Part shown: in pieces, positions 26,893 to 49,102 of the stretch
Layout: each line of letters starts with the position of its first letter
Position numbering within the stretch: position 1 is the stretch's first letter
Assembly (NCBI GenBank): GCA_947589345.1
Contig: CANQAC010000003.1
Span: forward strand, 22,420 to 86,419
Direction of reading: 5' to 3'
Origin: an uncultured Akkermansia sp.
GTDB lineage: Bacteria > Verrucomicrobiota > Verrucomicrobiia > Verrucomicrobiales > Akkermansiaceae
DNA length: 64,000 nucleotides
Notes under the pieces: model-generated
Database searches by the model: none
What the model was told of the DNA's origin: nothing
Seen by the model: the letters and a program-made list of their open reading frames with translations, nothing else
Made by a program: the position numbers and the translations under genes

Positions 26893-27033
26893 AGTTTCTT
26901 GATGTGTTGCATGCCCATTCTACCATGTTGCTTGTTGTTTGCAAGCCCGATTTTCCGATAACTTTCATCGGAAAAAGAACGCGTACCACGCGCATTTCTT
27001 GCCATTTGGCGGTCAGTGTGCTAAAGTGGGCGC

Positions 27034-27669: not shown

Positions 27670-27671
27670 GC

Positions 27672-28772
27672 ATGGCACGCATTCTCTCAGCGGTGAGCGG
27701 CGGGGTGGACAGCGCAGTGGCCACTGCCCTGCTCGTGCAACAGGGACACGAGGTGGTGGGCGCTTACATGAAAAACTGGATCAATGAGGAAGGCATCCCG
27801 GGCGAGTGCCCTTGGGAGCAGGATATCGAGGACGCACGCGCCATCTGCCGCGTGCTGGGCATTGAGCTGCGCGTGGTGGATCTCATCGAACAGTACCGCG
27901 CCCGCATCGTCAACTACCTGCTGGAGGGCTACCGCGCCGGCGCCACGCCGAACCCGGACGTGCTCTGCAACCGCGAAATCAAGTTTGGCGTGCTGCTGGA
28001 CTACGCACTGGAACAGGGTTTTGAGGGCGTCGCAACCGGTCACTACGCCAAGCGGGAGGACGCTCCCGGCGGCGAACACTACATTCTGCGCGGGGACGAC
28101 CCGAACAAGGATCAATCCTACTTCCTCGCCCTCATGCGCGCCGAGCAGATAGCGCACGCTGTTTTCCCCATCGGCGGCATTGCCAAGCCGCGCGTGCGCG
28201 AGCTGGCGCGCGAGTTCAACCTGCCCGTGGCTCTCAAAAAAGACTCGCAGGGCATCTGCTTCATCGGCCAGGTGAAGATGAGTGACTTCCTGCGCCACTT
28301 CATCCCCGATAACCCCGGCGACATCGTGAATGCCTCGGGTCGCGTGCTCGGTCATCACCTTGGCCTGCACCTCTTCACCATCGGTCAACGCAAGGGACAC
28401 CACATCGCCTCGCCGCGCGAGGGCGTCGCCTACGTCGTCGTCGGCAAAGACATCGCCCGCAACCGCCTCATCCTCGACTACGAAAGCCCGGACGCCCCCG
28501 GACTCTACGCCTCCGGCGCCTCGGTCAGCCACATCACCAACGGCTGCCACCCCCTGCCCGAGCGCGTGCTCGCCCAGCCCCGCTACCGCTCCCCCGCAGA
28601 ACCCGCCTCTCTGCGCTACATCGGCGATGATTGCGTCCAGCTCACCTTCGACCGCCCCGTTCGCGCCCTCTCCCCCGGCCAAATCTGCGCCTTCTACGAT
28701 CCCACAGCCCCCGCTCGCCTCCTCGCCGGCGGCTTCTTCTCCCACATTACCTCCAGTCATCCTCTGGGGTAA
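27672..28772 (+). CDS. mnmA: tRNA-specific 2-thiouridylase MnmA
   Basis: MARILSAVSGGVDSAVATALLVQQGHEVVGAYMKNW; NPDVLCNREIKFG; KDSQGICFIG. The in-frame ORF upstream of 27672 overlaps thiE and is rejected. Confidence 0.96.
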   Translation: MARILSAVSGGVDSAVATALLVQQGHEVVGAYMKNWINEEGIPGECPWEQDIEDARAICRVLGIELRVVDLIEQYRARIVNYLLEGYRAGATPNPDVLCNREIKFGVLLDYALEQGFEGVATGHYAKREDAPGGEHYILRGDDPNKDQSYFLALMRAEQIAHAVFPIGGIAKPRVRELAREFNLPVALKKDSQGICFIGQVKMSDFLRHFIPDNPGDIVNASGRVLGHHLGLHLFTIGQRKGHHIASPREGVAYVVVGKDIARNRLILDYESPDAPGLYASGASVSHITNGCHPLPERVLAQPRYRSPAEPASLRYIGDDCVQLTFDRPVRALSPGQICAFYDPTAPARLLAGGFFSHITSSHPLG

Positions 28773-28901
28773 ATATAGGAGCGCGACAGTACCATCCCCA
28801 ATTCGCCGACAGATCAGTCTTCGGGAAATCGCTGCAAAAAAAAAGGAGTTCTTCTCAAAATTTCGCTTGCTATTCGGATAGATTTCATAAGAGAATAACG
28901 C

Positions 28902-30494
28902 ATGCCTCCCCGGAAACACAATTTCAATTTCAAGGATCAAATGAATGATTCGGATTTCTCGTCACTTGCCAAATTTCTGGAAAAATACGCTGGTACGCCA
29001 GAAGAAGATACAGAGGCAGGGAAGGAATGCAAAAAACCCATCCACCTTGCAGCAGAAGCCAAGGATCTGTCACGCTTGCAACGTCTCCTGGATCGGGGAG
29101 TGTCCCCTGATGAGCGCAGTTGCTACACATTCGCGTCTGATCATGTTCTGATGGATGATCCGGAGGACGTGGCGGAAAGTAAAGATGTTACGCCGTTAAT
29201 GGTCGCTGCATCCGTCGATTTTGATGCAGGAGTGCAGGAACTCCTGGCTCGTGGAGCAAACATTGAGTGTAAGGACAGCGATGGGCGAACAGCTCTCTGG
29301 TACGCCGCTGCCTTTCACGCAGGAAAAACGCTCAAGCGCCTCATCTCTGCCGGGGCTGATGTGAACGTTGCCGATCTTGACGGCAATACCCCACTCGGTC
29401 TGGCGATCTACTGCCCCTCCCGACCGCGCATTCTCTCCGATCTTCTCGCCGCCGGAGCCAACCCCAATCAGGCAAATAAGGAACGCTGCACCCCCCTGCA
29501 TTTCGCCGCTGCCGATGGTACGGTCAAACAAGTAAAAATACTCCTCGATGCCGGAGCCAATCCCCATATCAAGGATCGCGATGGCTGGGTGCCTTTGTGG
29601 CATTGCACGAGCAACGCAAATCCTTTCCCCATCATCGACCTCCTCCGACCTTTCGGTCACTACTGGACGGCAAGCGATCTTAATCGCTCCTCGCGTCGCG
29701 ATCTCACCCCCCTCTTCGCCAATGCCTGCATGCAGTGCCCCTCCTCCCCCTTCATCCTGCAACTGATCAGAGAAGGCGCCAACATCAATACCACCTGTTC
29801 GACGGGAGCAACGCCCCTCATCCTGGCGCTTTCCACGTGCAATCAACCGGCCTACTCCACCCTGCTTGAATGCGGAGCCAACCCGAACCAACCGGACGCT
29901 CGCGGCATGACTCCGCTCATCGTCGCCCTGAGTGAAAACGATGAGCATGCCGCCCTCTCTCTCTTGTTATATGGAGCCGATATCAATGCCTCCGACCCCC
30001 TTGGGCAAAGCCCCTTGGACTATGCTCTCAACGGAACCTTTCGTCTGCGATTCCTCGCGACCCTCATCGATCGGGGGGCAGATGTCAACGCCCGGGATCA
30101 TCAGAACTGCACCCCCCTCATGCACGCTGTCAGGAATACGAACGAAACGGAGATTATCAAGCTGCTCCTCAGTCGAGGCGCCGACCCGAATGTCATCAAT
30201 GATCACGGCGAAACCGCCTTGCATTTCGCCGCTGAAGATGCCGACCCGTACTTCCTGCGCACCCTCCTCGCGGCCGGGGCTGACCCCTGTCTCATCGACC
30301 CCAACTGCGGTGTCTCTGCCCTGGACGAAGCTGTGCGCAGCAACTCCCATACCTGCGTCCGACACCTCGTCAACGCCCTTCCCCATTCCCCTGCTGCTGC
30401 CAACATCCTCCGCGAATCCCTCGACATCGCCCGGCAAGAACGCAATTCCCGCGCCGCCAAACTCATCGAGAACAAACTCGCCACGCTGGAGTAA
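28902..30494 (+). CDS. Ankyrin-repeat protein (many ANK repeats)
   Basis: Repeated ...GxTPLhxAxxxxxxxxVxxLLxxGADxN... units: DGRTALWYAAAFHAGKTLKRLISAGADVN; RCTPLHFAAADGTVKQVKILLDAGANPH; GETALHFAAEDADPYFLRTLLAAGADP. Confidence 0.93.
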   Translation: MPPRKHNFNFKDQMNDSDFSSLAKFLEKYAGTPEEDTEAGKECKKPIHLAAEAKDLSRLQRLLDRGVSPDERSCYTFASDHVLMDDPEDVAESKDVTPLMVAASVDFDAGVQELLARGANIECKDSDGRTALWYAAAFHAGKTLKRLISAGADVNVADLDGNTPLGLAIYCPSRPRILSDLLAAGANPNQANKERCTPLHFAAADGTVKQVKILLDAGANPHIKDRDGWVPLWHCTSNANPFPIIDLLRPFGHYWTASDLNRSSRRDLTPLFANACMQCPSSPFILQLIREGANINTTCSTGATPLILALSTCNQPAYSTLLECGANPNQPDARGMTPLIVALSENDEHAALSLLLYGADINASDPLGQSPLDYALNGTFRLRFLATLIDRGADVNARDHQNCTPLMHAVRNTNETEIIKLLLSRGADPNVINDHGETALHFAAEDADPYFLRTLLAAGADPCLIDPNCGVSALDEAVRSNSHTCVRHLVNALPHSPAAANILRESLDIARQERNSRAAKLIENKLATLE

Positions 30495-30534
30495 ATTCTC
30501 CCAAAAATAGATCTTTATCTGAAAGGAAGCCGCC

Positions 30535-31050
30535 TCAAAAACCCGAACCGTCTTCGCGAACGAGACCGCGACCTTTGCAACGTAAGCAGGGGACGTTGGA
30601 CACGGCACCGCGATGTCCCCTGCCATAGCAATCCGGACAGGTGACGACACGCACATGCGGCTTATCCGGCGCAATGCCGTCACGCACCCCGGTATCAACA
30701 CCATTCAGCGCACTTCCGTCCGACCGCACCATTCCCTCTCCCTTGCACTGGGCACACCTGCCGCCCGCACGCATGCGCCCGGTTCCTCCGCAAGATTGGC
30801 AGACAAAAACAGCGCCGTTCTGCGCATCCCGAGCCAAACCACTTCTCACGCGGGAGGGCATCCCGTTGACGAGGTCGCCGTTCTCCCGCACCACCTTTTG
30901 CCCCTTACACTGCACGCAGACGCCGCTCACCATCCGCCCTGTACCGCCGCACGATGGACACACCTTCACCGCCTCCTGCGCCCCGGCCATCCCAAGGCAC
31001 ACGCACGCCAGTGCTCCAAAAATCCACATCTTGATGTCCTCGATGCTCAT
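30535..31050 (-). CDS. Secreted protein with DnaJ-type CxxCxGxG zinc-ribbon repeats (no J domain)
   Basis: CPSCGGTGRM..CVQCKGQK, CQSCGGTGRM..CAQCKGEG, CPDCYGRGHR..CLRCKGRG; N-terminal signal/TM. Confidence 0.75.
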   Translation of the reverse strand: MSIEDIKMWIFGALACVCLGMAGAQEAVKVCPSCGGTGRMVSGVCVQCKGQKVVRENGDLVNGMPSRVRSGLARDAQNGAVFVCQSCGGTGRMRAGGRCAQCKGEGMVRSDGSALNGVDTGVRDGIAPDKPHVRVVTCPDCYGRGHRGAVSNVPCLRCKGRGLVREDGSGF

Positions 31051-31174
31051 AAACTCTTTTCTTTTCCTACCTCTCATTTCTTAAGTCTTTCCCGGTACAT
31101 TTCATCGCATTTTCTCCTCATCCGGAGGTTATTTCACCTCTGACCTTTATTGTCAATACTTTTCTGAACACAAA

Positions 31175-31273
31175 ATGCAATTTAATGAAGGAACTTTTGC
31201 TCTAAATATGCAATTTGATAAAGGAATTTTGGGATTATTTATGCAATCTGATGAAGGAAAATTCTCCTTTATG
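31175..31273 (+). repeat. Three imperfect 33-bp direct repeats
   Basis: Units begin at 31175, 31208 and 31241: ATGCAATTTAATGAAGGAACTTTTGCTCTAAAT / ATGCAATTTGATAAAGGAATTTTGGGATTATTT / ATGCAATCTGATGAAGGAAAATTCTCC.... Confidence 0.85.
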
Positions 31274-31412
31274 AGTAACGAAACGCGAGCTGCTTCCGGC
31301 TCACCTCTTCGCTCAATTTCGAAAATTTTCCCGCGCATTCGGTCACGCCTCCGCTTCGCGTAGCCCGCACGACGGCACGCGAATTTTCTAAATCGTAAAT
31401 AAGCTCACGGCT

Positions 31413-31649
31413 TCACCATTCCGTGATATCCCGCCCTTGGGCGTCATCGAAGGAGCCGAGCAGGATGCGGATGATGTCGATAACCTGCCAGATGACGAAA
31501 CCGCCACCTGTCAGAATCTGCAAAACGCCTGAAATGATCTTCCCCGTGTAAATACGGTGCAACCCACCGCAACACGAGCAAAAGAACAAACAGGCTAATA
31601 TCAACGTCACCGTCCGTGACCTGGGCGATACATTTTCTTCCATGTTCAT
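31413..31649 (-). CDS. TM2-domain-like small membrane protein
   Basis: LILACLFFCSCCGGLHRIYTGKIISGVLQILTGGGFVIWQVIDIIRILLG: TM2 pattern G-x-HRFY-x-G-x2-x-G-x2-Q...W-x-x-DhI. Confidence 0.85.
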   Translation of the reverse strand: MNMEENVSPRSRTVTLILACLFFCSCCGGLHRIYTGKIISGVLQILTGGGFVIWQVIDIIRILLGSFDDAQGRDITEW

Positions 31650-31691
31650 AAGATGATATAAGTTAAAAGATCATTTTCTGCTCACCCAAGT

Positions 31692-31883
31692 TCACCATAC
31701 GCTTTGAATAAGCCACACTGCACCCATCAATCCGCACGCAAGAGCCCCAAAAAGCAAATTCACCTCCCACGGCGGCGCAGGCATCGGATCCACAAAGTGC
31801 TTCGAGCAAAAATAATTCTGCACCCTCTCCACGCGCCGCTGCCACCAACCCCTGGGTTCTTGTCGCTGACTGTTCGTCTCCAT
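31692..31883 (-). CDS. Small single-TM protein
   Basis: METNSQRQEPRGWWQRRVERVQNYFCSKHF...LLFGALACGLMGAVWLIQSVW; lies directly downstream of the 44-aa ORF on the same strand. Confidence 0.45.
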   Translation of the reverse strand: METNSQRQEPRGWWQRRVERVQNYFCSKHFVDPMPAPPWEVNLLFGALACGLMGAVWLIQSVW

Positions 31884-31888
31884 ACTCG

Positions 31889-32023
31889 TTACCTAAATAA
31901 TTTCAGTGAAAGATACGCCACCCCAACCACGCACACGGCGATCAGCCACGTCGGCACATCCGGCCACAAAGAATGCAACGATTCCACAAAATCACGAAAT
32001 GAAGCTAGAACGTAGGTTTTCAT
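31889..32023 (-). CDS. 44-aa single-TM microprotein
   Basis: Hand translation of minus strand: MKTYVLASFRDFVESLHSLWPDVPTWLIAVCVVGVAYLSLKLFR*; stop 5 nt before the next ATG. Below the ORF-track size cutoff. Confidence 0.45.
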   Translation of the reverse strand: MKTYVLASFRDFVESLHSLWPDVPTWLIAVCVVGVAYLSLKLFR

Positions 32024-32275
32024 CTTTCTTTCTCTTTTACTTCATCGTTTCCGTCTCTCATTTTTCCGAGCAGTCAGCGTTTGTGGAATGACGTTGTTTC
32101 CACCAATTCTCCCGTACTCATACTGACACTCTACATCAATCTTCCTCTGCTAGCAAGTTAAAAGTATTGTTTCACCTTATTTTATCTCTTAGCAGTTTTA
32201 AATTAGAATATATTTTGCTATTTAATCAGCTTTTTATTTGACAAAACATGAGAAAAATGTTACAAGGGCTCGACT

Positions 32276-34986: not shown

Positions 34987-36045
34987 TCACGGTTTGAGTG
35001 TTGTTAAATGATCAATTTTTGACAAAACATCCGGGGTGTGATTCGTCATTGCTAATTTGCGACCGGTATCTCCCGCTACGCTCGAGAGCGCACGTGCGAT
35101 TTTTCCGTATTTTCCGGGAATCATACCCGACAAAAGCGCGGCAACCCGCATCACTTGCCCCGATACCTGTCCCGATTCCTTCTCTCCGACGCAGCAATAG
35201 CGGCAAAAATGCTCACAATTATTGGTTACAAGGTTGTATTTACCCCATGCGTCCGCATGGAAAAATACCCACACGGCTCGGTTGCGAGTCAGCAAACGTT
35301 TCCTCGCCCCGCTCTCCCGGTACGCCGCCTGCCAGCCGGTAGATTTACTACTTTTCCAACTCATGAAGTTTTGCAGACTGTCCGCCTTAATGCGGCTCTC
35401 TCCGCTCTCCATGCGGCAAGTAGAGAAGTGAATAATCCAATCGCCCTCGATAAGAATACCATGGTGCTCAAAGGCGGGTATAAAGGCATCCGGTACACAC
35501 GCATCGATGGCGCTCCCACTGCCCTCAAGAGGTATCCCAAGCCACTCCACCACCTCGGAGGGGCGAAGCTCCAAGTCTGTCACCCAGTGACGCCCGGCGG
35601 CGGGTGCCTTCTCCTCAAGCAAAGTCTCCATGCTCTCTCCCCACACGCATTCAGCCACGAAGTCATCCCCGGGAAAACTCCGTAGCCCCTCCAGTGCCTC
35701 GCCAAGCCTGCCACGCGCTCTTTCGTACACTGCGATCGGCTCTTGTTTATTCAACAGCTCCGGCGCGATGACGTAAAGCTCTTGCCCGGTACACAGGAAC
35801 TCCTCCACGCTCATTTCCACGATGCGGAAGCGGACCGCCTCCGGGGTGGAACCGGTGCAGTCTTGGCAGATCACTTTGTCGGTTTCTCCGGCAATACCGA
35901 AGCGCACTTTCACAGGCAAGCCGTACCGGCGCAGTTTTTCCTCCTGTGCCAAAGCAACCACTACCTGCCCGCAGCTCAACTCCGCCACATTATTTACCTT
36001 GTGCGGCGGTCTCGCTGCCTGCTCTCGTAAAAACAATCCGATCAT
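34987..36045 (-). CDS. LRAT-type (NlpC/P60 superfamily, permuted papain fold) domain protein
   Basis: FEHHGILIEGDWIIHFS (His-box, 13-residue HxG...H spacing as in LRAT HYGIYLGDNRVAH) followed by YNLVTNNCEHFCRYC (LRAT catalytic NCEHF motif). Confidence 0.78.
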   Translation of the reverse strand: MIGLFLREQAARPPHKVNNVAELSCGQVVVALAQEEKLRRYGLPVKVRFGIAGETDKVICQDCTGSTPEAVRFRIVEMSVEEFLCTGQELYVIAPELLNKQEPIAVYERARGRLGEALEGLRSFPGDDFVAECVWGESMETLLEEKAPAAGRHWVTDLELRPSEVVEWLGIPLEGSGSAIDACVPDAFIPAFEHHGILIEGDWIIHFSTCRMESGESRIKADSLQNFMSWKSSKSTGWQAAYRESGARKRLLTRNRAVWVFFHADAWGKYNLVTNNCEHFCRYCCVGEKESGQVSGQVMRVAALLSGMIPGKYGKIARALSSVAGDTGRKLAMTNHTPDVLSKIDHLTTLKP

Positions 36046-36063: not shown

Positions 36064-38490
36064 TTATTTCTTTCCGAACTTCTTCGATATCTCACCATCC
36101 AGATCCTGACACCGTTCGAGCAGATCTGGGATGGTCTCTTTAACCATCGGTTCAAGTACCTCTCTCACCCGCCGTTTCTCACTGTCCGCCTCCTTACTAT
36201 CATCCTCTGCCCGCGTCTTCTGCTCCTCCAAGGCTTCCTTCACATAATCGGCGGTATTCTTCAGCACCATAACGTAGTCGTTCAAGTGTTTCCAATATTG
36301 TCCATTCTGTAGAATTTGTGTGAAATGCTGCTTCGCTGCATCGATAAACGTATCACTCGTATTCTCCAGCAATTCTTTAACTTTTTCGCATGCCCGATCT
36401 GCATCTGTTTCCCCCCAATGAAGAGGATTAAGAATATTATTCAAATATGAAATATTGATATCTTCAATACCGGGAATGTCACGCAAAATAATCGGAAGTT
36501 TTTCCAGTTCTTTAACGATATCTTGTTCTTCCTCCTTCTTTTGCGCATCCTTGAAGGAATCAAAACCTGGCAAATTTTTGGAATATTCCTGATACACCCT
36601 GCCCCACTTTGTCAACATCTTCTTCACTTCACCATAACTCTCCAGTTTCGGAAGGCCCTCGACAACTTTCTCATCCCGCAATTGAGCGAGAAGAGATACC
36701 ATATGTTCTTTGATCTGATCACGAATACCACCAATAATAAGCCCTTTATCCTTTTCAGGGTCATACTGATGTACAAGATCATTCAACAAATCTGTCAGTT
36801 TCTGCTTCAATTCCTCCGCTCTATTCTCGTAGTAACTTTCAATTTGCCTGTTCAACCAATCAGCCAGTTCGTCCTGGAATGCATCTGCTGAATCATCAAT
36901 TTCATCTGTACATTGGTTGACAACTGATTGAAACTTTTTCAGAAGTCCCTCCTTTTTACCGAGTTCCCTTTTACGTTGTTCGACACTCTGCTCAAGTTCC
37001 TTTATTCTACCCTCTGCTTTTTCTTTCGCGCGATCAAGCAACATGATGACTTTTTTCGTCCCTTGATCTTGAAGAAGAGCATGCGCTTTTCTTAATGGGA
37101 TTGTTGTTTGTATTAGATCGATAAAATCCGGCACTTGGCTCTCTTGCAATGTTTCCTGCCATTTTATACGTTTGTCCGCGTCTTCATACTCCTCAATTTC
37201 TTTTCCTAAAAAAAGAAATACAAACTTACGTATTTGTTTTTCTAAAAATTTCTTACACCCATCTGGTTCAATCTTCCACTCTACGTCTCCGTACTCGCTC
37301 TCTATGCTTTCCTTAATTGCTTCGCAAGTATATCCCTCCAAGCCAGGTTCTGGTATCAAACCGTATTCCAAGCTCCGTAATGCTAGCGCCGTATGGTAAT
37401 CGTAAACCTCCGGTTTTACAAAACCAACACCTTCGATTTTTTGTACGCAATCTTTCTTTACGTTCCTCTTCCAATCATCAAGAGTTCTCCCTTTAACATT
37501 GGCACCAAAAAACAATCTATCATCTGCCCCTAACTGCTCTCTACACTTAGTTAAAGCTTTCACACATTGATCGCTCAAAGTATTCTCTCCTTTAATCCCG
37601 AAAAGAATAGCATCCGTATTCTTAATACACTCTTCCGCGACGTCCGTATCGCACTTGTTAGCAAAAAGACCAGGGCAATCTTCCACATCAATCCTTTCCC
37701 TTTTCAAATACTCAGAATCTACGTAATAGTGCAATTTTTTACAAAAGGCAAAGGCTACCTCCTCTTCGGTAAATACTTTATCCAAAGGCTTGCCGTCCTT
37801 CTCAACCTCCTCATTGTACCTCGATTCGTACAAATGCGGATACGAGGCATAACACCTGGCTTGCTTTACTTCTTCGATGCGTTGTACCTCACCCAATTCA
37901 ATACGAGCTCTGAACATATCGTAGAAATGTAAGAGGATCAAAGCGTGGCGGAAGAGACTTCTTTCCTCGGGTTTCAGCTCGACATTTTGTGATGGTTTAT
38001 GAACCAATTTTTCAAGGAGATATTGTTCAATTTTGTCACGATCTTGCTTTTTATCTAAGTTGAAATCTTCCGGCTTAAATGGACCGTCGACAGAAAGAAT
38101 CTTGATCGACTTGAGTACATTGATAATATCTTCTTTCCCGCACCATCTAACCTCGGCATAATCCTTCTTTTCCCCGGCAGGCAGTGCCGAGGCAACCACT
38201 TGGCATGCGCTCGTAGCAATGCCACCCGTTCCCCTTCCGCTTGGAGAAAGCTCCTTACCGCCGCACAAATAATTAAACATCGTGGACTTGCCACTTTGGA
38301 ATTCACCAACGAGCGTCAGCGTCATTCTGTCACTTTCGACTTTTTTGATATCCAATTGGCTCTTGCTGGCATCCATCTTACATTCTTTATGCACAGTATC
38401 AAGAACGCCTTGAGTTTCCTTCATTAGAGCGACTACGTTGTCTTTCAATCTAATGTATTCATTTTGAACGGTGGTAGTGTTTACTTTCAT
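36064..38490 (-). CDS. Dynamin-family-like large GTPase, 808 aa
   Basis: P-loop LVGEFQSGKSTMFNYLCGG; G2-like GTGGIATSA; G3 VEDCPGL; long coiled-coil C-terminal half. ATG at 38490 chosen (MKVNTTTVQNEY). Confidence 0.8.
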   Translation of the reverse strand: MKVNTTTVQNEYIRLKDNVVALMKETQGVLDTVHKECKMDASKSQLDIKKVESDRMTLTLVGEFQSGKSTMFNYLCGGKELSPSGRGTGGIATSACQVVASALPAGEKKDYAEVRWCGKEDIINVLKSIKILSVDGPFKPEDFNLDKKQDRDKIEQYLLEKLVHKPSQNVELKPEERSLFRHALILLHFYDMFRARIELGEVQRIEEVKQARCYASYPHLYESRYNEEVEKDGKPLDKVFTEEEVAFAFCKKLHYYVDSEYLKRERIDVEDCPGLFANKCDTDVAEECIKNTDAILFGIKGENTLSDQCVKALTKCREQLGADDRLFFGANVKGRTLDDWKRNVKKDCVQKIEGVGFVKPEVYDYHTALALRSLEYGLIPEPGLEGYTCEAIKESIESEYGDVEWKIEPDGCKKFLEKQIRKFVFLFLGKEIEEYEDADKRIKWQETLQESQVPDFIDLIQTTIPLRKAHALLQDQGTKKVIMLLDRAKEKAEGRIKELEQSVEQRKRELGKKEGLLKKFQSVVNQCTDEIDDSADAFQDELADWLNRQIESYYENRAEELKQKLTDLLNDLVHQYDPEKDKGLIIGGIRDQIKEHMVSLLAQLRDEKVVEGLPKLESYGEVKKMLTKWGRVYQEYSKNLPGFDSFKDAQKKEEEQDIVKELEKLPIILRDIPGIEDINISYLNNILNPLHWGETDADRACEKVKELLENTSDTFIDAAKQHFTQILQNGQYWKHLNDYVMVLKNTADYVKEALEEQKTRAEDDSKEADSEKRRVREVLEPMVKETIPDLLERCQDLDGEISKKFGKK

Positions 38491-38521
38491 GGTAGGTAAT
38501 GGTAATGTTTGTGAAGAAAAA

Positions 38522-40216
38522 TTAAAGAGAAGCGGCGAGGTGTTGAATCCTATCAGCCACATTGAGGAGTTGCTGCTTTTGGGATGGCGAAAGGCGGACA
38601 GTTTGCGCCTTTTTCAGAGCGTTTTCGATTTCCGGGAAAAGTCCGGCACTCCGCAAATTAGCCCGCAGTTGGTCGCACATGCGGTCGAATAGACTTTGCA
38701 TCGAGGCTTCGGTCTTTGTCGTCATTTCATCCACGGCTGCAGAGAACTCCGCAATAGCCCGACTGCGAATGACTTTACCCAGCATACGCATCGGCATCAG
38801 CTCACGGACTCTAGGGATTTTATCCCCGACAAAACGGACAATCATATCGCCAATGAACCCAGTCGGCATAATCAACGAAAAAACGGCAATATCGAGCGCA
38901 TAGAGCACCCAATGTGGGGTATTTGTCAGCATACGAATGAATGAGCTGCAGCCGGAGAATATATCCGAATCCGGCAGCCGGAACACGCTCTCAAGCTTCA
39001 CGCGATAGCTGCCCTCAATTCTGCCAAGAGTGTTCTCAAAATCGTTTCTCGCCAGTTTCAGCAAACGCTGAACGCGCTCCGGGAGGAGTTCCTGCCACGT
39101 CTTAACGGCGTCCAGCACCTCCGTGGCATCTTTCTTTTGCTCCAAATCCTCCTTGTAGCCAATTTTCAACTTCTCCAACCAATGTTTGAGATTTTCCTGG
39201 AAATTGTACTGAGCATCTGCAACATCTTCTAGCAAACTGCGCACCACGCGCTGGTACTCCTCGCGCTTAGCCGCCAGTACTTGCCTGATGGACTCGATCT
39301 CCTCCGCGCTCTTGCCGTCCATCTCCAGGCGCGAGACCACTGCGGCGCGCAGGCGTTCCAAAAGGGGACGCATATCACGCACCGCACGCGCCCGGTACCC
39401 ACGCTGCACCTCGCCACGCAGAAAAGCATCCAGCTCTGCTCGTACTATTTCACCATTCTGCAATGCAGTCTGACCCTTAGCGAGGGAGAAGACAGAAATA
39501 CCCACATTTGACACACCAATGCCGCTGAGCTGCGCGATGATGGTGGCGCAGAGGTCGTCAAATTGGGAGCCGATCTCGGACTCCATGGTGGTGAGAACCA
39601 CATGTATAGGCAGACTGGGCTGCTGCATGCCCGCCAAGTCCGCCAGGAGGTTAAGTTCCCGCTCGCTGAGCTGTTGCGCCCGCACCGCATACAGAAGAGC
39701 GTGCGCCGTGCGGGCTTCGTGCATGGTGCTCACATACACGTCCGAGTTCGTAGTATTGAGCCCCGGGGTGTCCACCAACGTGATGCCGGGTGGTAGAATG
39801 CCCGGCTCTGCAATGACCACTTTACTGTACTGCTTGGCAAGACGTGCACGCTCCTCGTCGGACTGAGCCGTCACCACCCGCGCCACATCCTCCGGCAGAA
39901 AATTCTCGCGGCTCTCCACAAGGGTTTCATCTTGTGTAGTCGTGTCACGCTTCCACGTTTCCATCCGCATCTGCCCGCTACTCAGGTGAGTAGGAACAGC
40001 AGTGGCTTCCAGATAGTCCACAGGCAATACATTTCTCTCTAAAAAAAGGCGGTTGATAAGCGTACTCTTCCCGGTCTTAAAATCGCCGATGACGACGACC
40101 TTGAGACTACGTTTTGCCACCTGCTCCAGCATGCTCGCGAAAGCAGACGCCAAATTGCCATCCTCCAATTCCTCAGCTATCTTCCCCGCTTCTTGGATTA
40201 TTTCGTCGATGTTCAT
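38522..40216 (-). CDS. Dynamin-like GTPase, 564 aa
   Basis: VVIGDFKTGKSTLINRLF; G2 ATAVPTHL; G3 LVDTPGLNTTN; helical stalk with hydrophobic WVLYALDIAVFSLIMPTGFIGDMIVRFVGDK. Confidence 0.88.
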   Translation of the reverse strand: MNIDEIIQEAGKIAEELEDGNLASAFASMLEQVAKRSLKVVVIGDFKTGKSTLINRLFLERNVLPVDYLEATAVPTHLSSGQMRMETWKRDTTTQDETLVESRENFLPEDVARVVTAQSDEERARLAKQYSKVVIAEPGILPPGITLVDTPGLNTTNSDVYVSTMHEARTAHALLYAVRAQQLSERELNLLADLAGMQQPSLPIHVVLTTMESEIGSQFDDLCATIIAQLSGIGVSNVGISVFSLAKGQTALQNGEIVRAELDAFLRGEVQRGYRARAVRDMRPLLERLRAAVVSRLEMDGKSAEEIESIRQVLAAKREEYQRVVRSLLEDVADAQYNFQENLKHWLEKLKIGYKEDLEQKKDATEVLDAVKTWQELLPERVQRLLKLARNDFENTLGRIEGSYRVKLESVFRLPDSDIFSGCSSFIRMLTNTPHWVLYALDIAVFSLIMPTGFIGDMIVRFVGDKIPRVRELMPMRMLGKVIRSRAIAEFSAAVDEMTTKTEASMQSLFDRMCDQLRANLRSAGLFPEIENALKKAQTVRLSPSQKQQLLNVADRIQHLAASL

Positions 40217-40236: not shown

Positions 40237-41052
40237 TTACAACGCTTGAAGTTGCTTAAAAAGCTCCGGCACGCCGCTCTCTCGTTCGACTTCATCCCAT
40301 GACGGCACCGGCTCCTCCCCAATAAAGATCCTCCAGTCACGCTTCAATACCTCCTCCATTTCCCTTTCTTTTTCGCTCAATTTGTTCGCATCCACCACAG
40401 AGGAGAACGGCGAGGCATATAGCCAATATCTAAGCGCCTGTAGCTGCCGCGCATACAGCGCAAGCCTCGCGTGAATAACGACAATCGGCGGTTTCTTTGC
40501 ACCGATGGATTCTACATCCGACCTGATGGTGGCCACGAGGTCGCCCAAACTGCCACGCTCAACACCTTGGGGATTCAACGCTAGCACCACCTTTTTCCTT
40601 CTCAGCCGTTTCTGATAAAAAACTTTTTGCCGCTCTTCGAGACCGTATGCTCGGCAAACATAAATAATGTGGGAGACCTCCTCAATGCTCCTCTCTCTAT
40701 ACTCCGCCGCTTCCTGAGACTCGCCTGCCGAATCAAATCCAGGCGTATCCCTCACTATGCACCCTAGCTCCTCTAATATCGGTGTGCGCAAAAAGTAATT
40801 CTGCTCGCATTCCGTGGAAATGACATCCAAGATCGGCAGTGCATGGAGCGAAAAGTCCTTTTTCTTTTGCCTTGGCAGACGTATCTGTACATACTCTTCT
40901 TTAGCGGAGTCGCTCAGCGCCGCACAAGTTCTCCGCCATGGGGAACAGCACCCTAGCCCCGGCATCTCTCGACCTCCGCACAAATAGGAGAACAGCGTGG
41001 ATTTACCTGTTTGGTAATCCCCCAGTAGCAAAACTGTTTCTCCTTTTCTCAT
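40237..41052 (-). CDS. Stand-alone dynamin-like G-domain protein
   Basis: MRKGETVLLLGDYQTGKSTLFSYLCGGREMPG...IVRDTPGFDSAG; GTG start a few codons upstream possible. ORF-track extension to 41388 runs antisense-free into the upstream CDS and is rejected. Confidence 0.7.
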   Translation of the reverse strand: MRKGETVLLLGDYQTGKSTLFSYLCGGREMPGLGCCSPWRRTCAALSDSAKEEYVQIRLPRQKKKDFSLHALPILDVISTECEQNYFLRTPILEELGCIVRDTPGFDSAGESQEAAEYRERSIEEVSHIIYVCRAYGLEERQKVFYQKRLRRKKVVLALNPQGVERGSLGDLVATIRSDVESIGAKKPPIVVIHARLALYARQLQALRYWLYASPFSSVVDANKLSEKEREMEEVLKRDWRIFIGEEPVPSWDEVERESGVPELFKQLQAL

Positions 41053-41164
41053 AAAGTATGCCTTGAGTCTCACACCCCCAGTTCTCCCTTCCTCCCGGAG
41101 GAGGCGCGACCACCATGAGGTAGTCGCGCCAGCTCCAGAAATAGTCCGGCTGGCAATGCCCCTA

Positions 41165-42925
41165 TCACAGGGCTGCCATCCACTGCTTGCAAAGAGTAAT
41201 CTTCTCTTGCAGCTGTGCCTTCTCCTCCTCCGTGACAGTGCCACTACGTGCCATCTGTACGGCGTGCTCCATCTCGGAGAAACCGCCGTTTTGCATCGCC
41301 TTTTCAGATATCTGCTCAATGATGGCATCAAACCGCTGTGCGATTTTCTTCGTGATTTCGTCGGAACACTTCGCGAAGTACTCTCCAAGCTGCGGAGTTA
41401 ATTGTCCCTTGGCTATGTTTGCCATGATGGCTGTAGGTAACACCTTTTTGAGGAGCGGCAGTTTTCCGAGGAAAAAGCGTACGATTAAATCCGTGAAGAA
41501 ACCACCAGGTATAAACTCCCCAGAAAATATGTAATCTATAATGGTGATGAGTGTACCCGGCACCATCTTAATGGCTTTCAAGAAGAGACCCTCCAACTCC
41601 ACCGGCATAACGCCATCCACCGGCATTCCCGTCTCCATTTTCTCGCCGTATGTATTACTGATGCGCATCAAGATAAGCTTAAAGTCTCCGGCAGCATCCC
41701 GGACGATTTTTTCGATCTGTGGCTGGAATACCTCAACCTTACTTATCTCATCGATCACATCGCTCACATCGGAGAGTGTGTCGCATTCCTCGACCTTCTG
41801 CACATAGCTGTCGTGCATAGCCTGAAGTCCCTGTTGGACGGTTGCCTCCAACCCCTTTTGAGCTTCATGAATCTCCTGCAGCATTTGATTCACAATCGTC
41901 GTGTACCTGCCCTTCTTCGTCTGCAAATCCCCTTCGAGCTCACGGAGCTTCTCCTCATTCTGCCCGGCAAAGTTCACGCAGGATTCAAGCGCGATCAGTA
42001 AACGACCCAGCAAAGGACGCAAGTCGCGCACTTGGCGGATGGCTCGTCCCTGACGCACGGGACCATTGAAGAATGCTTCCAAGTCCTTGGTGATGTCATC
42101 CGTGGAGGCCGCCGCAGAGGCTGGAGACTCGGTGGAAGTTTTGAACGGGTCCCACTCGTCGTCAACGTTCACATTCACGCTTCCCTTGCTGCCCATAACG
42201 AATACTGACACCCCACACTGAGGAATCCCTACGCCCTCCAACTGCGCCCGGACGGTGCCCTGCAAATCACGGTATGCCCCGGGTTCATCTCCCTCCGGCA
42301 CGCTGACAACCACATGAATCGGCAAGCTGGGCTGCTGCATGCCGGCCATATCGGCCAGCAGGGAGAGCTCGCGTTCACTCAGCTGCCGACCGCGCACGAC
42401 GTAAAGGATAGCGTGCGCCGTGCGAGCTTCCTCCATAGTGCCGACGTAGATGCGCTGGTTGGTCGTATTCAGCCCTGGGGTATCCACCAGCGTGATGCCG
42501 GAGGGCAGGATGCCGGGCTTGGAGATGCACACGCGGCTGTATTTCTCCGCAATGGCGGCGCGAGCTTCCTCCGTGCCGGCGGTCACGATGGACTTTACCT
42601 GTTCCTGATCGAAGTCGGTCCATTCATTTTGCAGCGTACTCTTACCGTCCTCACCGCGCAGCCAGGTCTGCAGCCGGGTTTCTCCACTGCTCAAGTGAGT
42701 AGGCACCGCCGTTGCCTCCAGATAATCCACTGGCAGCAGATTATCCTTCAGGAAGAGCGTATTGATCAATGTCGATTTACCTGCCTTGAAATCCCCGAGT
42801 ACGACGACCTTGAGGGTGTCGCCAGAGATTTCTTCCGCCACTTTCTTCAGAGCGCTGACGAGCTCCGCATTCTTGATACTCTCCGCCATTTGTATGGCCG
42901 AGCTGATGATTTCGTTGGTTTTCAT
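41165..42925 (-). CDS. Dynamin-like GTPase, 586 aa, paralogue of 38522-40216
   Basis: VVVLGDFKAGKSTLINTLFLKDNLLPVDYLEATAVPTHLSSGE; LVDTPGLNTTN; hydrophobic segment GTLITIIDYIFSGEFIPGGFFTDLIVRFFLGK. Confidence 0.88.
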   Translation of the reverse strand: MKTNEIISSAIQMAESIKNAELVSALKKVAEEISGDTLKVVVLGDFKAGKSTLINTLFLKDNLLPVDYLEATAVPTHLSSGETRLQTWLRGEDGKSTLQNEWTDFDQEQVKSIVTAGTEEARAAIAEKYSRVCISKPGILPSGITLVDTPGLNTTNQRIYVGTMEEARTAHAILYVVRGRQLSERELSLLADMAGMQQPSLPIHVVVSVPEGDEPGAYRDLQGTVRAQLEGVGIPQCGVSVFVMGSKGSVNVNVDDEWDPFKTSTESPASAAASTDDITKDLEAFFNGPVRQGRAIRQVRDLRPLLGRLLIALESCVNFAGQNEEKLRELEGDLQTKKGRYTTIVNQMLQEIHEAQKGLEATVQQGLQAMHDSYVQKVEECDTLSDVSDVIDEISKVEVFQPQIEKIVRDAAGDFKLILMRISNTYGEKMETGMPVDGVMPVELEGLFLKAIKMVPGTLITIIDYIFSGEFIPGGFFTDLIVRFFLGKLPLLKKVLPTAIMANIAKGQLTPQLGEYFAKCSDEITKKIAQRFDAIIEQISEKAMQNGGFSEMEHAVQMARSGTVTEEEKAQLQEKITLCKQWMAAL

Positions 42926-42955: not shown

Positions 42956-45262
42956 CTACCTGTTCGATTCATCGCCGATGGCATTGCGTAACGCATCGAT
43001 AAGCTCCCTGCATTTCGTTGCATTCGCATTCTTCTCGCGCTGAGAGGCGTATTCATCCGGGAAAATACACTGCTTGAGCTTTCTTAACACGTTCTCCCAA
43101 GCTTCTTCCACATGTTCCCGAGTGCAAAGTTTCATGCTCGCATCACATACGCCATCTTCTAACAATGATTGATACTTAACGCGGTTGCCCTTTACCTTCT
43201 CAGTAATGAAACACAGTGCCGCGAAGATAACCTTGCGTGCGAAGTCAGAAAACTCCTTCCCCGGTGCACTTTCAGAGGGGAGCTGGGTCTTCTCATCCTT
43301 CAAGTATTTAGCCATCTCTTTCGTCTTTGAATCACTCGATTTTTCAAGAACCTCGATGACAGGTTGTTTGATAAATGTCATACGTCCGGCTTTCCAACGC
43401 AAGTAATCCAACAAGTTCAGTGCGGGGCGAAGTTCGTCTAACGACACGTACTTGGCGCTCTCCCGTATGTCCACCAATCTCTTGATACCTTCGATAATTA
43501 AGTCGGCGCCATACGTTTCAGACTCCAGTTTTTCACTCAAGGACTTGAGCTTTTCGCCCGAATCCGAGCCGGAACACAATCTCTGCATCACCTGGTCAGT
43601 CAGGGCCTTACTCAGCACTCCCTCCACAAGCTCTTGGACGTGCGGTCCGATCTCTGCTGCAACCTCGGACAACTTACCGATATATTCACTCAGTTTGTCT
43701 TGGAAGCCGGAGAAAACTTTTTCTATGGGATGTCTACCCCTATTTAAGGTCTTTTTCATCTCCTCCTCGGTAATTTCACTTCTCACCTTCTTCTGCCATA
43801 TCTCTTCCTCCCACGTTTTCTTGATTCTTTCCACTTTTTCAAGCATCACGCTAAGCTTCTGATCAGGCTCCGTCTGTTGGCATATTTTACTCGTCAACTC
43901 ACCAAAATTGCCCTTGAGGCGATCCAGAAAGTTATCTCCCGTTGTATATCGGAACCACGCTGTGAACTTACCATTCATCGCTTCCTCCATCTCGTCGGGC
44001 AACTTAGGAGCCTGCTCCTGCAGCGGCTTAATCACCTCGTTGCGTACCCCGTTTTCAAGGTTGGAGATTTCATCCCACAGGCTCCGAATCATCTTTTCGT
44101 CTTCCCGCGGCAGCACCTCACTCAACCGCTCATTCAGATAGGCTTTAAATTGAGTCAAGGAGGTTTCATCGGTCACATCACAAGGTGGAGGAAGGTTGGG
44201 AATCACGTTTTTCTCGCGAACTTCCGACAAACGTCTTTGAGCAGAACTCCCATCAGCATCCGCCGGTTTATACCAGTTGACGAGGAAGATGGCGCGTTCA
44301 CGAATGGGATAGTCCTTATCGCTCACTTGCTCTAAATTGGCAATGAACTGAGCCAGCGAGCCGGTGATGCTCGGAGAATCTTTCGGTCGATCGAGAATAA
44401 CGAGCATATCCGTATCCTCTTTCAAGGTTTTGAGTGTCCGACGCAATGCTTGTGGATTCGGATCATCCACCCCGGGTGTATCGCACAAGCACTGATGTTC
44501 ATCCCCGTTCGGGTAACACTTTCTGACGAGCAGGCGACTTATCAAAGGCTGTTGATCTATTTCCTTTGAATGCGCCGCAAGCGTGCGGAGCTTGTCTATC
44601 GAATCTTCCCTTTCCTGACCGAGTACCGAAAAATTGCTGCCGAGAGCTTTTTGGATGCTATGCAAATGCTCAAGTGCTGGTCCGTAATTTAGCGCTGCCA
44701 TTGAACTGAGTGCCTTCACTTCCGGCAACCGCATGGAGGCAAATGCGGTCAGATTTTCAACTTTCGGCAAGGGAGCATACTCCTCCGGCTTTTCCCATAT
44801 GGTTCCATTGCCTTTGTTCAGATGCTCCACTTCGCAGTTGATGATATCCAGCAACTCGTCTTCTTTGTAATAAACAACAGTGATGCCCTCCCCACTGGGG
44901 TTTGCCACATGAGTAATCTCACACGAAACAGCCGTGCACCGCTCATTCGCGGCGGGCAAATCCTCAATCCCCGTGAGATTCTTCAAAAAGGTAGTCTTGC
45001 CGGCTTTCTCAGTCCCCGCCACCGCAATATTGATGACTCCCTTCTCAAAGAGTCGCACCTTATGCTCGATTCTCGCAGCCAGCTCGCTCACCTCATTGAT
45101 GTAATGTCGGATCTTTTGAGGCTTGTTTTCGAAAGCTTGAGATAGCTCCGCCGCAGTTAAAGCGTCCTTGAGCTTCTGCAACTTCTCACGCTGTTTCTTC
45201 AATGTCGGAGTCTGTTTTTGCCGATTTTCGATGATTTCTTTGTTGATGAGTGTGTTTCCCAT
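42956..45262 (-). CDS. Dynamin-family-like large GTPase, 768 aa (first gene of operon)
   Basis: INIAVAGTEKAGKTTFLKNLTGIEDLPAANERCTAVSCEITH; G3 LCDTPGVDDPN; long helical C-terminal part. Confidence 0.83.
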   Translation of the reverse strand: MGNTLINKEIIENRQKQTPTLKKQREKLQKLKDALTAAELSQAFENKPQKIRHYINEVSELAARIEHKVRLFEKGVINIAVAGTEKAGKTTFLKNLTGIEDLPAANERCTAVSCEITHVANPSGEGITVVYYKEDELLDIINCEVEHLNKGNGTIWEKPEEYAPLPKVENLTAFASMRLPEVKALSSMAALNYGPALEHLHSIQKALGSNFSVLGQEREDSIDKLRTLAAHSKEIDQQPLISRLLVRKCYPNGDEHQCLCDTPGVDDPNPQALRRTLKTLKEDTDMLVILDRPKDSPSITGSLAQFIANLEQVSDKDYPIRERAIFLVNWYKPADADGSSAQRRLSEVREKNVIPNLPPPCDVTDETSLTQFKAYLNERLSEVLPREDEKMIRSLWDEISNLENGVRNEVIKPLQEQAPKLPDEMEEAMNGKFTAWFRYTTGDNFLDRLKGNFGELTSKICQQTEPDQKLSVMLEKVERIKKTWEEEIWQKKVRSEITEEEMKKTLNRGRHPIEKVFSGFQDKLSEYIGKLSEVAAEIGPHVQELVEGVLSKALTDQVMQRLCSGSDSGEKLKSLSEKLESETYGADLIIEGIKRLVDIRESAKYVSLDELRPALNLLDYLRWKAGRMTFIKQPVIEVLEKSSDSKTKEMAKYLKDEKTQLPSESAPGKEFSDFARKVIFAALCFITEKVKGNRVKYQSLLEDGVCDASMKLCTREHVEEAWENVLRKLKQCIFPDEYASQREKNANATKCRELIDALRNAIGDESNR

Positions 45263-45523
45263 GGTCAGGTTTGTATTTAATTTTGCTATCTTCTTTTTCT
45301 CGTTTCAGGTACGTTTGAGAAAGCTTTTTCAGAGCGGGAAAAGTCATATATACATCTTTAAATTGATTATATTAGCTATTTTTACTATTTTAACTCGCTT
45401 TTTAAATAGTTTTTCATCGATTCAGTTCTCTCCGCTCCGGACTAGTTTTATATCTTTTCGTTAGATATGTCCAGATAAAAATAAAGCTCATAGTAGAATT
45501 TTAGAGAAGTTTTATAGATCGGT

Positions 45524-45982
45524 TCATAAGAAAGACAAACGGAGGGGGGGGGAAGCTCCGGAATGGGACAAGAGCATGGATAACATGTTAGAAAACTTTT
45601 CTCCTCCATCAAGGATAGGGACCTTGAATTTGGCATGCTTTCCATTTTTACGGGTACACAGTAAATCACCAAACGGACAATCTCCCTCAAGCGCGAAGAG
45701 GCGTACGCTCTCCGGCTCTTCGTGAACATACGCTGCTGCCAAAGTCCAACGATTCAAATACTGCGTTATTCGCTTCCCGCGGTCGCAAACCTCCCTCCAA
45801 TACCCCTCCCTCAAGGTAGAATCCAAACGTCCGACGCTCGGCTTCCCTGCCTCTTGATTCTGACTAGCAGCAAAAATTCCCCTCAACTCATCCCTCAGGA
45901 TGTTGAGTCCACCTCTTACTCCTCGCGGGGGGGGGGGATTGATTCTTAACGCGTTGCATAATTTGAGTCACGCTCGACAGGG
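45524..45982 (-). CDS. Putative slippage-dependent small ORF (ATG separated from body by C11 tract)
   Basis: Minus strand ATGCAACGCGTTAAGAATCAAT-C11-GCGAGGAG...: as sequenced (C11) the ATG frame stops early (MQRVKNQSPPPARSKRWTQHPEG*); with C10 it joins the 120-aa frame LRDELRGIFAASQNQEAG.... End coordinate of the ATG is approximate. Coding status unproven. Confidence 0.3.
45544..45552. repeat. Homopolymeric G9 tract (C9 on minus strand)
   Basis: gga-ggggggggg-aagc read directly. Confidence 0.85.
45925..45938. repeat. Homopolymeric G11 tract (C11 on minus strand); coordinates within about 2 nt
   Basis: cctcgc-ggggggggggg-att read directly. Confidence 0.85.
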
Positions 45983-46885
45983 GAACATATATCACAAAAA
46001 TATCGAGAATACAAGTATTTTTTTACATGATGTCATGCACCATCGCAACCAATCACCTCACGGAGATTGAACAGGGACTGCCTCCGGCAGACTTTGTTCT
46101 ATCACCGCATTTTGGAGCGGCTCTTTTTTCTCGCGTGCTTGATCAATCCCATCCTGGATCAACCGCAGCACGACCAATCAGGACACAATCATGAAGACGA
46201 TGAATCGCCGGTCGAACATGACGGCTTTGCTCCACTCTACGTCAGATTCCACCCGCGCGCGGACGCAGTACCTCCATACTTCTTACTACGCCGTTCAATT
46301 AGCATGCTACTGGGGCGTACCATCACATGTTTATCAATCTTTTACAGCTACAGGGAGAAATACGGTTGGCCTTATTTTCATACTCTTTTTAGGTGTGTCA
46401 GAAATTAATTTCTGCCCTCTTTCTTGAGAAGTATTGCTTTAGGAGGCATGAAATCGGCACGGAGTTTGACTTTGCTCGAAAACCCTCTTCCCCACGTCAT
46501 TTCCGTCGTGTAAGTGAACTCAGGAAGATTTTCCAAAAAACAATATCTTACCGAATAACATGCGCGTATTCACACAGAATCAACGGGAAGAATCGGCAAG
46601 GCAACGAAATCCGCAAGTACGGTATTCAAGGCGACACGCGCCGCAAAGGGCATATAGATATGACTCATCGGATATTGCCGGACGGAGGAACCTGATCGCA
46701 GCCGACAGCTATCCGGCTGCACGAGCACGCTGGACAGAAATGAGCAACACCTTGGTAAAATTGTTTTGTCATTATCGCAAAAATTCGATAGACTGCGGGA
46801 ATAGGAGGTGTATAATAGGTGAGTGCATTTTCTGCGGTTGATGATTCAGCCTGCAGGAGAAAAGCATGAAAAACGCGGGGAAAAT

Positions 46886-49102
46886 ATGAACTGGATCACA
46901 CAGAAAACGACACGCGGACTAGGTTATATCGCCTTGGTGTTCATGGCGAGCAGTTGCGCCGCACCTGCTGCGCCCGATTACAACACGATAGGCAGACAGT
47001 TTTCGGAGGTGTTGCAAAACTCTCATTTTTCGCGGGAGCGTTTTTCAGCATCACTCTACGCTAAGTTTTTGGATTGCTACCTTCAATCCATTGACCCGCA
47101 GCACCTCTACTTTACGCAGGAGGATGTGAATGCTCTGCACAAAAAATACGGGGATTCCTTTGGAGATTATCTGTTGAATCGAGAAACGTCAAATCTGGCG
47201 CAGGAGTTGTATGGCATGTACGCAGAGCGAGCGTTGCGCCACATAGCGCAGGCAGAGGCTATCCTGCACGAGTATGAAAAGAATCCGCCGAAGTTCGATA
47301 GCGACCGCGTGGTGCCGCGCACACGACGCAAGCTTCCAAGAGCAAAAGATGACGCTGAGCTGGATCAGGTGTGGCGCTGCCAGGTGGAAGACATGCTGCT
47401 TTCCGAGGTGTGCCGACGCGAGAATGTAGCCCGTTTGGCGGCAGAGAAAGGGAAGCCGGATCCCAATGCAAAGGAACCCTCCCCGACCGCTAAGATATTG
47501 GCTCGACTGAAGCGGGTGCGCATGGAAGTGCAAGAGGCGGATGAGGAAGATATGGTGACCCACTTGCTCAACGCCGTGGCGCACGTGTATGATCCCCATA
47601 GCGATTACATGGGGGCGCGCGAAGAGAAACAATTTAAGGACATGATCAAGGCCTCTCTGGTGGGCATAGGAGCCCAGCTGCGAGAAGATGATGACGGCTC
47701 CACGAAAATAGAAGGCATTGTCAAAGGGGGACCGGCAGATAAAAACGGACAGCTTAAACTGGGGGATCACGTGGTGGCCGTTGATACAAACGGGGACGGA
47801 AACTGGACGGATATTCTTTTCATGAGCATCGATAAGGTGGTGAACCTCATTCGGGGCAAAAAGGATGTGCCGGTGAGGTTGCGTGTGCAGAGCGCGGAGA
47901 GCGGGGATGAACGCATCATTACCATCGTGCGTGATGAGGTGCCCATGTCAGAATCTCTGGCCGGAGCGCGTATCGTGGATTTACATGAACAGGGGCCGCA
48001 GGGGGAGGTGCGCACCTATCGTCTGGGCATTCTCACACTGCCTTCCTTCTATGTGGATATCGATGGAGGGAATGTACATTGCGCCACCGACGTGCGACGA
48101 ATTCTTGCTCGCATGGTGCGCGAGAAGGTGCAGGGGTTGGTACTCGATCTGCGTACCAATGGTGGCGGCTCACTGGAAGAGGTGCGCAAAATGGTCGGCT
48201 TCTTCACCGGCGCCGGCCCGGTGGTGCAAGTGAAGGATGCGCGGGGGCAGGTGGAACGTCTGACTGTGAGCGGCAAACCCATTTTCCACGGTGATTTGGT
48301 GGTACTCACCAGCAAGGCGAGCGCTTCCGCTTCCGAGATTTTTGCCGGGGCTATGAAAGACTACGGACGCGCCGTGATTGTGGGTGATGACACCACTTTC
48401 GGTAAAGGAACCGTGCAGGTTCCGCGAAGCCTGGCGGATTATATGCCTTTCTTTTCAGCGCGGGAGGGGTGCGGCCTGATCAAGGTGACCGTGCAGAAGT
48501 TTTATCGTATCAACGGGGCATCTACCCAACTGAAAGGAGTGAGCAGCGATATTGAATTGCCAACGGTGACCTCGGGCATGCAGATAGGTGAGGCGGAAAT
48601 GGACCATGCCATGCCGTACGACGCGATTGCAAAAGCGGGGGGCTACGTGTGCGGCACACACACAAGCGCTATCCTGCCAAGGTTGCGAGAATTGAGCGCG
48701 GCGCGTGTGGCAAAGGACGAAGATTTGCAGAACAACGTGTGGTACGCCAACTACCGCCGCCGCATCATTAAAGAGAATTCCTATTCGCTCAACAAAGAGA
48801 AGCGACAAGCTCAAATTGCCGAGTTGCGCGACTTCAAGAAGAAGAGCGATGCAACTCGTAAGCAGCGCTACGAAGCCATGAGCAAAGATGACGCCTCTAA
48901 ATTGACCATCTACCGCCTCAAGCTCACGGATCTGGACAAGGGAGAACTCCCCTTGGCAACAAAGGAAGATAAAGACAATTTCATGCGCGAAGCCAAGGAT
49001 CCGGAGGAAGAATTGGAGGATAACCTTGACTACCCCTCTGACTTGGATCCCGTGTTGCGCGAGGCGCTCTACATCACGCGGGATATGATAGATCTGCGCT
49101 GA
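46886..49102 (+). CDS. prc: Carboxy-terminal/tail-specific S41 protease, lipoprotein-like
   Basis: Lipobox-like MASSCAAP; PDZ GIGAQLREDDDGSTKIEGIVKGGPADKNGQLKLGDHVVAVD; LVLDLRTNGGGSLEEV; TSKASASASEIFAGAMKDYGRAVIVGDDTTFGKGTVQ. Confidence 0.95.
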   Translation: MNWITQKTTRGLGYIALVFMASSCAAPAAPDYNTIGRQFSEVLQNSHFSRERFSASLYAKFLDCYLQSIDPQHLYFTQEDVNALHKKYGDSFGDYLLNRETSNLAQELYGMYAERALRHIAQAEAILHEYEKNPPKFDSDRVVPRTRRKLPRAKDDAELDQVWRCQVEDMLLSEVCRRENVARLAAEKGKPDPNAKEPSPTAKILARLKRVRMEVQEADEEDMVTHLLNAVAHVYDPHSDYMGAREEKQFKDMIKASLVGIGAQLREDDDGSTKIEGIVKGGPADKNGQLKLGDHVVAVDTNGDGNWTDILFMSIDKVVNLIRGKKDVPVRLRVQSAESGDERIITIVRDEVPMSESLAGARIVDLHEQGPQGEVRTYRLGILTLPSFYVDIDGGNVHCATDVRRILARMVREKVQGLVLDLRTNGGGSLEEVRKMVGFFTGAGPVVQVKDARGQVERLTVSGKPIFHGDLVVLTSKASASASEIFAGAMKDYGRAVIVGDDTTFGKGTVQVPRSLADYMPFFSAREGCGLIKVTVQKFYRINGASTQLKGVSSDIELPTVTSGMQIGEAEMDHAMPYDAIAKAGGYVCGTHTSAILPRLRELSAARVAKDEDLQNNVWYANYRRRIIKENSYSLNKEKRQAQIAELRDFKKKSDATRKQRYEAMSKDDASKLTIYRLKLTDLDKGELPLATKEDKDNFMREAKDPEEELEDNLDYPSDLDPVLREALYITRDMIDLR

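Follow-up and report, generated by a model that had tools for sequence, protein, structure and literature searches.

Organization of the locus

The locus lies in a 64-kb window (64,000 nt, the whole stretch of DNA analysed) from an uncultured Akkermansia sp., in which a short reading frame bounded by two C tracts precedes a GTPase operon; the parts of this locus are all on the minus strand. The order on this strand is an ATG at position 45959 that opens the leader ATGCAACGCGTTAAGAATCAAT (MQRVKNQS, 45938–45959), a C11 tract (45927–45937) at codons 8–11 after the ATG, followed by GCGAGG, and an open frame, hereafter the body (45524–45926), which directly adjoins the tract and ends with a TGA at 45524. 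The body is 120 aa long when counted from the TTG at 45886 and 147 aa from stop to stop. The ATG and the body are offset by one base, and the length of the tract sets the start-to-body frame; as assembled, C11 leaves the body OFF, and the frame of the ATG reads MQRVKNQSPPPARSKRWTQHPEG to a stop after 23 codons. A start within the body frame 5' of the tract was rejected, because that frame holds no ATG, GTG, or TTG before its in-frame stop at 45970–45968.

A second tract, C9 (45544–45552), adjoins the end of the body frame, and the alternative C-terminus after C9, SVCLSYEPIYKTSLKFYYELYFYLDISNEKI followed by a stop, forms the end of the ORF listed at 45448–45729. The original prediction for this DNA had proposed a phase-variable locus in which loss of one C from C11 would fuse the ATG to the body and loss of one C from C9 would exchange the C-terminus. 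Its tracts, out-of-frame ATG, coordinates, and frame arithmetic were all confirmed by re-reading the minus strand, and the exchanged C-terminus is indeed encoded in the listed ORF. Upstream of the leader, a putative promoter, site A (TTGTAT, 17 nt, TATATG; 45986–46014), belongs to the same 5' module; it had no match in a stricter promoter consensus scan. An Rfam search of positions 44000–48000 returned no family and no known RNA.

The GTPase operon and motif B

The operon consists of five GTPase genes and a gene for an LRAT-like protein. It begins with dynamin-like GTPase 1 (768 aa, 42956–45262; PF00350, E=9.4e-10; LeoA profile, E=8.3e-5) and dynamin-like GTPase 2 (586 aa, 41165–42925; PF00350, E=7e-18; LeoA, E=1.2e-16), followed by GTPase 3 (383-aa ORF, 40237–41388; PF01926, E=5.5e-5), the start of which is uncertain, as its first part overlaps GTPase 2 and the version in genome G016 has 271 aa. 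Dynamin-like GTPase 4 (564 aa, 38522–40216; PF00350, E=2.1e-17), dynamin-like GTPase 5 (832 aa, 36064–38562; PF00350, E=2e-4, below its cut-off; LeoBC, E=9.4e-15), and the LRAT-like protein (34987–36045; PF04970, E=3.5e-11), the last gene of the shared block, complete it. Matches of the GTPases to the PADLOC profiles LeoA and LeoBC were partial (E from 1e-16 to 5e-4). The operon is common to G016, with 95% DNA identity over 8.1 kb; the N-terminal half of GTPase 1 is conserved between the two genomes and its C-terminal half is strongly diverged, the rest of the operon being nearly identical, which suggests that 42956–43950 may be a mosaic or a diversifying effector end. A relative of GTPase 1 was found in three genome records. 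Two of them are MAGs of Akkermansia whose samples are called Lapin (rabbit being inferred from the name), and the Akkermansia of the window is probably of rabbit gut origin. The third, a Muribaculaceae-binned contig with a 94% match to GTPase 1, is probably mis-binned.

The gap of about 260 nt between the body and the operon holds motif B, TTTTATCTGGACATATCTAACG (45459–45480), a promoter- or operator-like element that is present in one copy each in 7 of 76 Akkermansia genomes. It adjoins this GTPase operon in three genomes and lies upstream of a GrpE-like operon in G008. A generic promoter was rejected as its identity, given its single-copy occurrence in only 7 genomes. Because motif B lies between the body and the operon, and because contig C41 of G084 keeps the body region with the GTPase operon absent, the operon probably has its own promoter in motif B, and any effect of the tract on the operon is conjecture. 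A palindrome close to CATCTCTTTCGAAAAGAGATG was also observed upstream of genes in G086, G088, and G008 (L032:2037-2340, L085:2520-2550, and L087:2340-2370), and the window's motif B resembles a variant form of this palindrome; no copy of the palindrome within 3 mismatches was found in the window.

Recurrence of the leader module

The pattern ATGCAAxGCGTTAAxAATCAAT, which covers the start codon and leader, was found at six loci in five genomes, and a reversed control pattern gave zero matches. DNA searches, in an analysis that covered a genus panel of 76 Akkermansia genomes, further showed that the module (site A, leader, and C tract) recurs in four other genomes at three further genomic sites: it is present in G016, at two loci in G084, and in G087 and G082. 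The spacing of site A is 17 nt at every aligned locus; its first hexamer TTGTAT is identical in G084 C41, G087, and G084 C68 and is TTGCAG in G016, and the second hexamer varies among the aligned loci. The module neighbours dnaE in G016, G084 C41, and G087, gyrA in G082, an acyltransferase gene in G084 C68, and prc/RadC in the window, and it is directly upstream of and co-directional with the GTPase operon in the window, G016, and G087. As judged from these alignments, the leader represents a conserved module common to several loci of one Akkermansia lineage. A viral contig pattern scan and plasmid and phage searches found nothing, so that nothing points to an origin from a phage or a plasmid.

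The homologous tract is C4TC18 in G016 and C9 in G084 C68, and it is interrupted in G084 C41. Its length thus differs between species (C11, C4TC18, C9, or lost) in what is a between-genome comparison only, and none of the assembled tracts C11, C4TC18, and C9 is in the ON phase. Contigs break inside the tract in G087 (C84 and C31) and G082 (C21); poly-C contig ends are also seen elsewhere, and a sequencing artefact is possible. Two separate blocks of the window, 26992–32163 (thiE/mnmA/ankyrin) and 45442–46047 (the poly-C ORF), are also present on a single G084 contig (L018). The poly-C ORF adjoins dnaE in L018 but prc in the window, a difference that suggests either that the region was rearranged or that the GTPase operon was inserted at the poly-C spot.

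An intact GrpE-like gene behind the module

In G084 C68, the frame that is open after the tract encodes a 218-residue protein and is followed by genes for a C39-like peptidase, two dynamin-like GTPases, and an Hsp70-like protein, the last being the partner expected of a GrpE-like product. A matching operon order with Hsp70 occurs in G088 (PF00012, E=5.5e-27), G021, and G089, the Hsp70-like frame being Pfam-confirmed in G088 and recognised by eye in the other two. The family of the 218-residue protein had no Pfam match. Its AlphaFold model has a core pLDDT above 90, and a Foldseek search of the PDB with this model returned GrpE structures at all of the top 11 positions (best E=5e-5, TM-scores 0.2–0.5); despite the lack of a Pfam match, the product is predicted to have a GrpE fold. 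DNA identity to the corresponding gene of G024 is 84–98% right of L021:2580 and 24–36%, which is background, left of it. Because identity drops so sharply at this point, the comparison indicates that the 5' end of the GrpE-like gene was replaced by the module with its promoter, start, and tract. To the right of the junction, a recount based on the frame offset puts the differences between the two genes at 13 for the first, 4 for the second, and 29 for the third codon position, and the family is therefore under constraint. A GrpE-like/C39 peptidase-like/two dynamin-like GTPases/Hsp70-like/GYF-domain protein operon was also observed at L192:621-9912 in Akkermansia. No described system with this gene set was found in the papers searched, and a literature search for a GrpE/dynamin/DnaK operon found nothing direct.

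Probable origin and decay of the body

The body had no Pfam hit, and a pattern scan of contigs found no relatives of its protein, which were found by profile and DNA searches of whole genomes. The original prediction had named a lack of homologues of the body as grounds against itself, and this objection is removed. In BLASTP, the body matched the GrpE-like protein of L021 with E=3e-6 over 46 residues; the score was 32.7 bits, compared with 25.0 for the best of 300 shuffles and at most 18.1 for the other five frames. A profile of three bodies searched against the 76 genomes hit three GrpE-like loci with one and the same profile stretch (E=0.004–0.085, among weak hits), and profile–profile comparison by itself gave a weak probability of 4% for the GrpE-like family. 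At the DNA level, the body and the gene in G084 C68 showed no significant similarity beyond about 20 nt 3' of the tract. The homology is confined to the middle helical segment, and the C-terminal beta domain is missing. With moderate confidence, the body is interpreted as a GrpE-like stump without the beta domain; the link to the GrpE-like family comes from one 46-residue segment.

Differences between the body and its counterparts in G016, G084, and G087 number 28/28/20, 22/23/19, and 17/20/15 at the three codon positions, with no third-position bias, and dN/dS is 1.01, 0.75, and 0.86, respectively. The adjacent N-terminus of GTPase 1 has a dN/dS of 0.15–0.19, the value of 0.15 going with 6/6/24 differences. 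The body frame is stop-free in all four aligned genomes, which is not significant under neutral resampling (P 0.17–0.28 per pair). The body carries a 1-nt deletion at 45759 (a frameshift) in G016 and a 129-nt in-frame deletion in G087, and a stop stands at the tract end in G084 C41. An open 196-aa frame in G016 was rejected as an ON allele, because the first part of the body is in the wrong frame there and the body frame is re-entered via the 1-nt deletion. DNA identity is 84–92% in the 3' flank and 78–82% in the body. These patterns indicate that the body evolves under little or no protein constraint, and its dN/dS, together with the frameshift, deletion, and stop in relatives, does not fit a gene with a selected, functional product. 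The window copy probably no longer makes a useful protein.

The C9 tract is private to this genome in the four-genome alignment: the relatives have CCCCTTCC or CCACCTCT at this site, two bases fewer and no run. C9 was probably gained by slippage within a degenerating 3' end, and its absence in relatives speaks against the predicted switch of the C-terminus.

Frequency of long C/G runs

C11 and C9 are the only C/G runs of at least 9 bases in the window, where a first-order Markov model derived from the window predicts 0.40 runs of at least 9 and 0.026 of at least 11. Under the same model, the 2.25-Mb genome has 16 distinct runs of at least 9 (14 expected), 11 of at least 10 (3.6 expected), and 4 of at least 11 (0.9 expected). 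Long C/G runs are therefore in excess over expectation from 10 bases upward, and C9 alone is unremarkable because runs of at least 9 are near their expected count. By run length, C11 is mildly notable; what sets it apart from C9 is its position, at the start of a frame and directly after a conserved leader. Runs of 9–10 nt also occur within the folD, dnaX, and carboxylase genes of this genome (named by eye from translations), and for this reason a homopolymer run by itself proves nothing.

Interpretation of the module and alternative explanations

The feature is best explained as a poly-C contingency module in front of a shortened, diverging GrpE-like stump that is OFF as assembled, with a probably separate promoter for the operon; the probability of this reading is put at roughly 55%. 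Slippage of the tract would determine whether the start shares the frame of the gene behind it, which is an intact GrpE-like co-chaperone gene in G084 C68 and a GrpE-like stump in the window. The tract may slip in living populations, ON cells would make the protein, and motif B could drive the GTPase operon. A contingency anatomy is indicated because C11 stands behind a conserved promoter-like site and start, its length differs between genomes, and the module has been grafted onto another gene. To this extent the predicted phase-variable locus holds up, whereas it is doubtful that this copy turns a useful small protein ON and OFF, because the body shows no protein-level constraint and is broken, deleted, or stop-capped in relatives. 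The module has probably outlived its gene in the window copy, which is probably decaying.

An active contingency locus, in which C11 switches a functional small protein and C9 its C-terminus, would account for the stop-free frame in four genomes, the in-frame nature of the G087 deletion, and the conservation of leader and start; the near-neutral dN/dS without third-position bias, the non-significance of the missing stops, the G016 frameshift, the stop at the tract in G084 C41, and the relatives without C9 make it distinctly doubtful. Those same signs of relaxed selection would suit a dead remnant, the tract being the fossil of a former switch with no present role, and the interruption or loss of the tract in G016 and G084 C41, together with retention of the ORF region without the GTPase operon in the latter, points the same way. 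However, start and leader are still recognisable while the body drifts, and the window tract is an uninterrupted C11, so that this explanation, too, is unlikely, if a little less so than an active locus. The module could instead act in cis, with the frame state of the leader ORF controlling read-through into the GTPase operon by polarity or coupling and no useful body protein being necessary. Its directly upstream, co-directional position in three genomes and the higher conservation of the 3' flank than of the body would agree with such a role, but the gap of about 260 nt with the rare motif B suggests an independent promoter, and G084 C41 has the region without the operon; this role is very improbable.

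A transferable poly-C promoter-start cassette, travelling from locus to locus through replacement of the first gene's 5' end, might make Hsp70/GrpE-dynamin operons stochastically phase-variable in Akkermansia, a proposal that is offered tentatively and is itself rather unlikely. If the module does switch co-chaperone genes in operons of dynamin-like GTPases, the population would be bet-hedging a candidate intracellular conflict system. The window copy is of lesser value in this respect and illustrates how a module can outlive its gene.

Relation to known systems

Surface polysaccharides and pili are the main known targets of slipped-strand switching in gut commensals. In A. muciniphila, the G9 of Amuc_1413 (exopolysaccharide export) lengthened to G10 during long-term culture and mucin binding was lost, a change interpreted as phase variation (PMC13055324), and a poly-C contingency module consistent with this G9 switch is plausible here. 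In both cases a long C/G run stands close to where a frame begins, stops occur out of frame, and the run differs in length between genomes. In contrast to Amuc_1413, the target in the window is a GrpE-like stump and not a surface-polysaccharide gene, the leader and tract recur as a module at several loci, and switching in the window is a candidate only. Phase variation in the same genus is also described for cps1, which relies on an invertible promoter (PMC13343947), that is, on DNA inversion and not on homopolymer slippage.

The G084 C68 family and its relatives resemble the GrpE nucleotide exchange factors of Hsp70 in predicted fold and in having an Hsp70 gene 3' of them, but the family is strongly diverged, without a Pfam GrpE match, and the C-terminal beta domain is missing from the window copy. 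Some of the GTPase-centred conflict systems include HSP70 and GrpE (PMC7159879). Multiple dynamin-like GTPases per operon are shared with these systems and with LeoA/LeoBC (PMC4159319), and GrpE/Hsp70/peptidase partners in the related Akkermansia operons are a further likeness to the conflict systems; the profile matches to LeoA/LeoBC are partial, and the window operon is a candidate conflict system. No phase-variable leader for GTPase-centred conflict or Leo systems was found described in the papers searched.

Other long runs were observed in this genome. C10 runs at L158:1877-1886 (folD-like) and L159:1967-1976 (dnaX-like) show that housekeeping genes here tolerate long C runs. A C21 at L168:2196-2216 (G000:C6:73695-73715), the longest run of C found, ends 8 nt 5' of an ATG that may be the start of an ECF sigma-factor gene (Sigma70_r2, E=3.6e-18) and is a candidate switch in a 5' leader. 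At L161:1968-1976 (G000:C45), an acyltransferase-SGNH frame has a G9 run at its extreme 5' end; surface-modification genes of this type are typically phase-variable.
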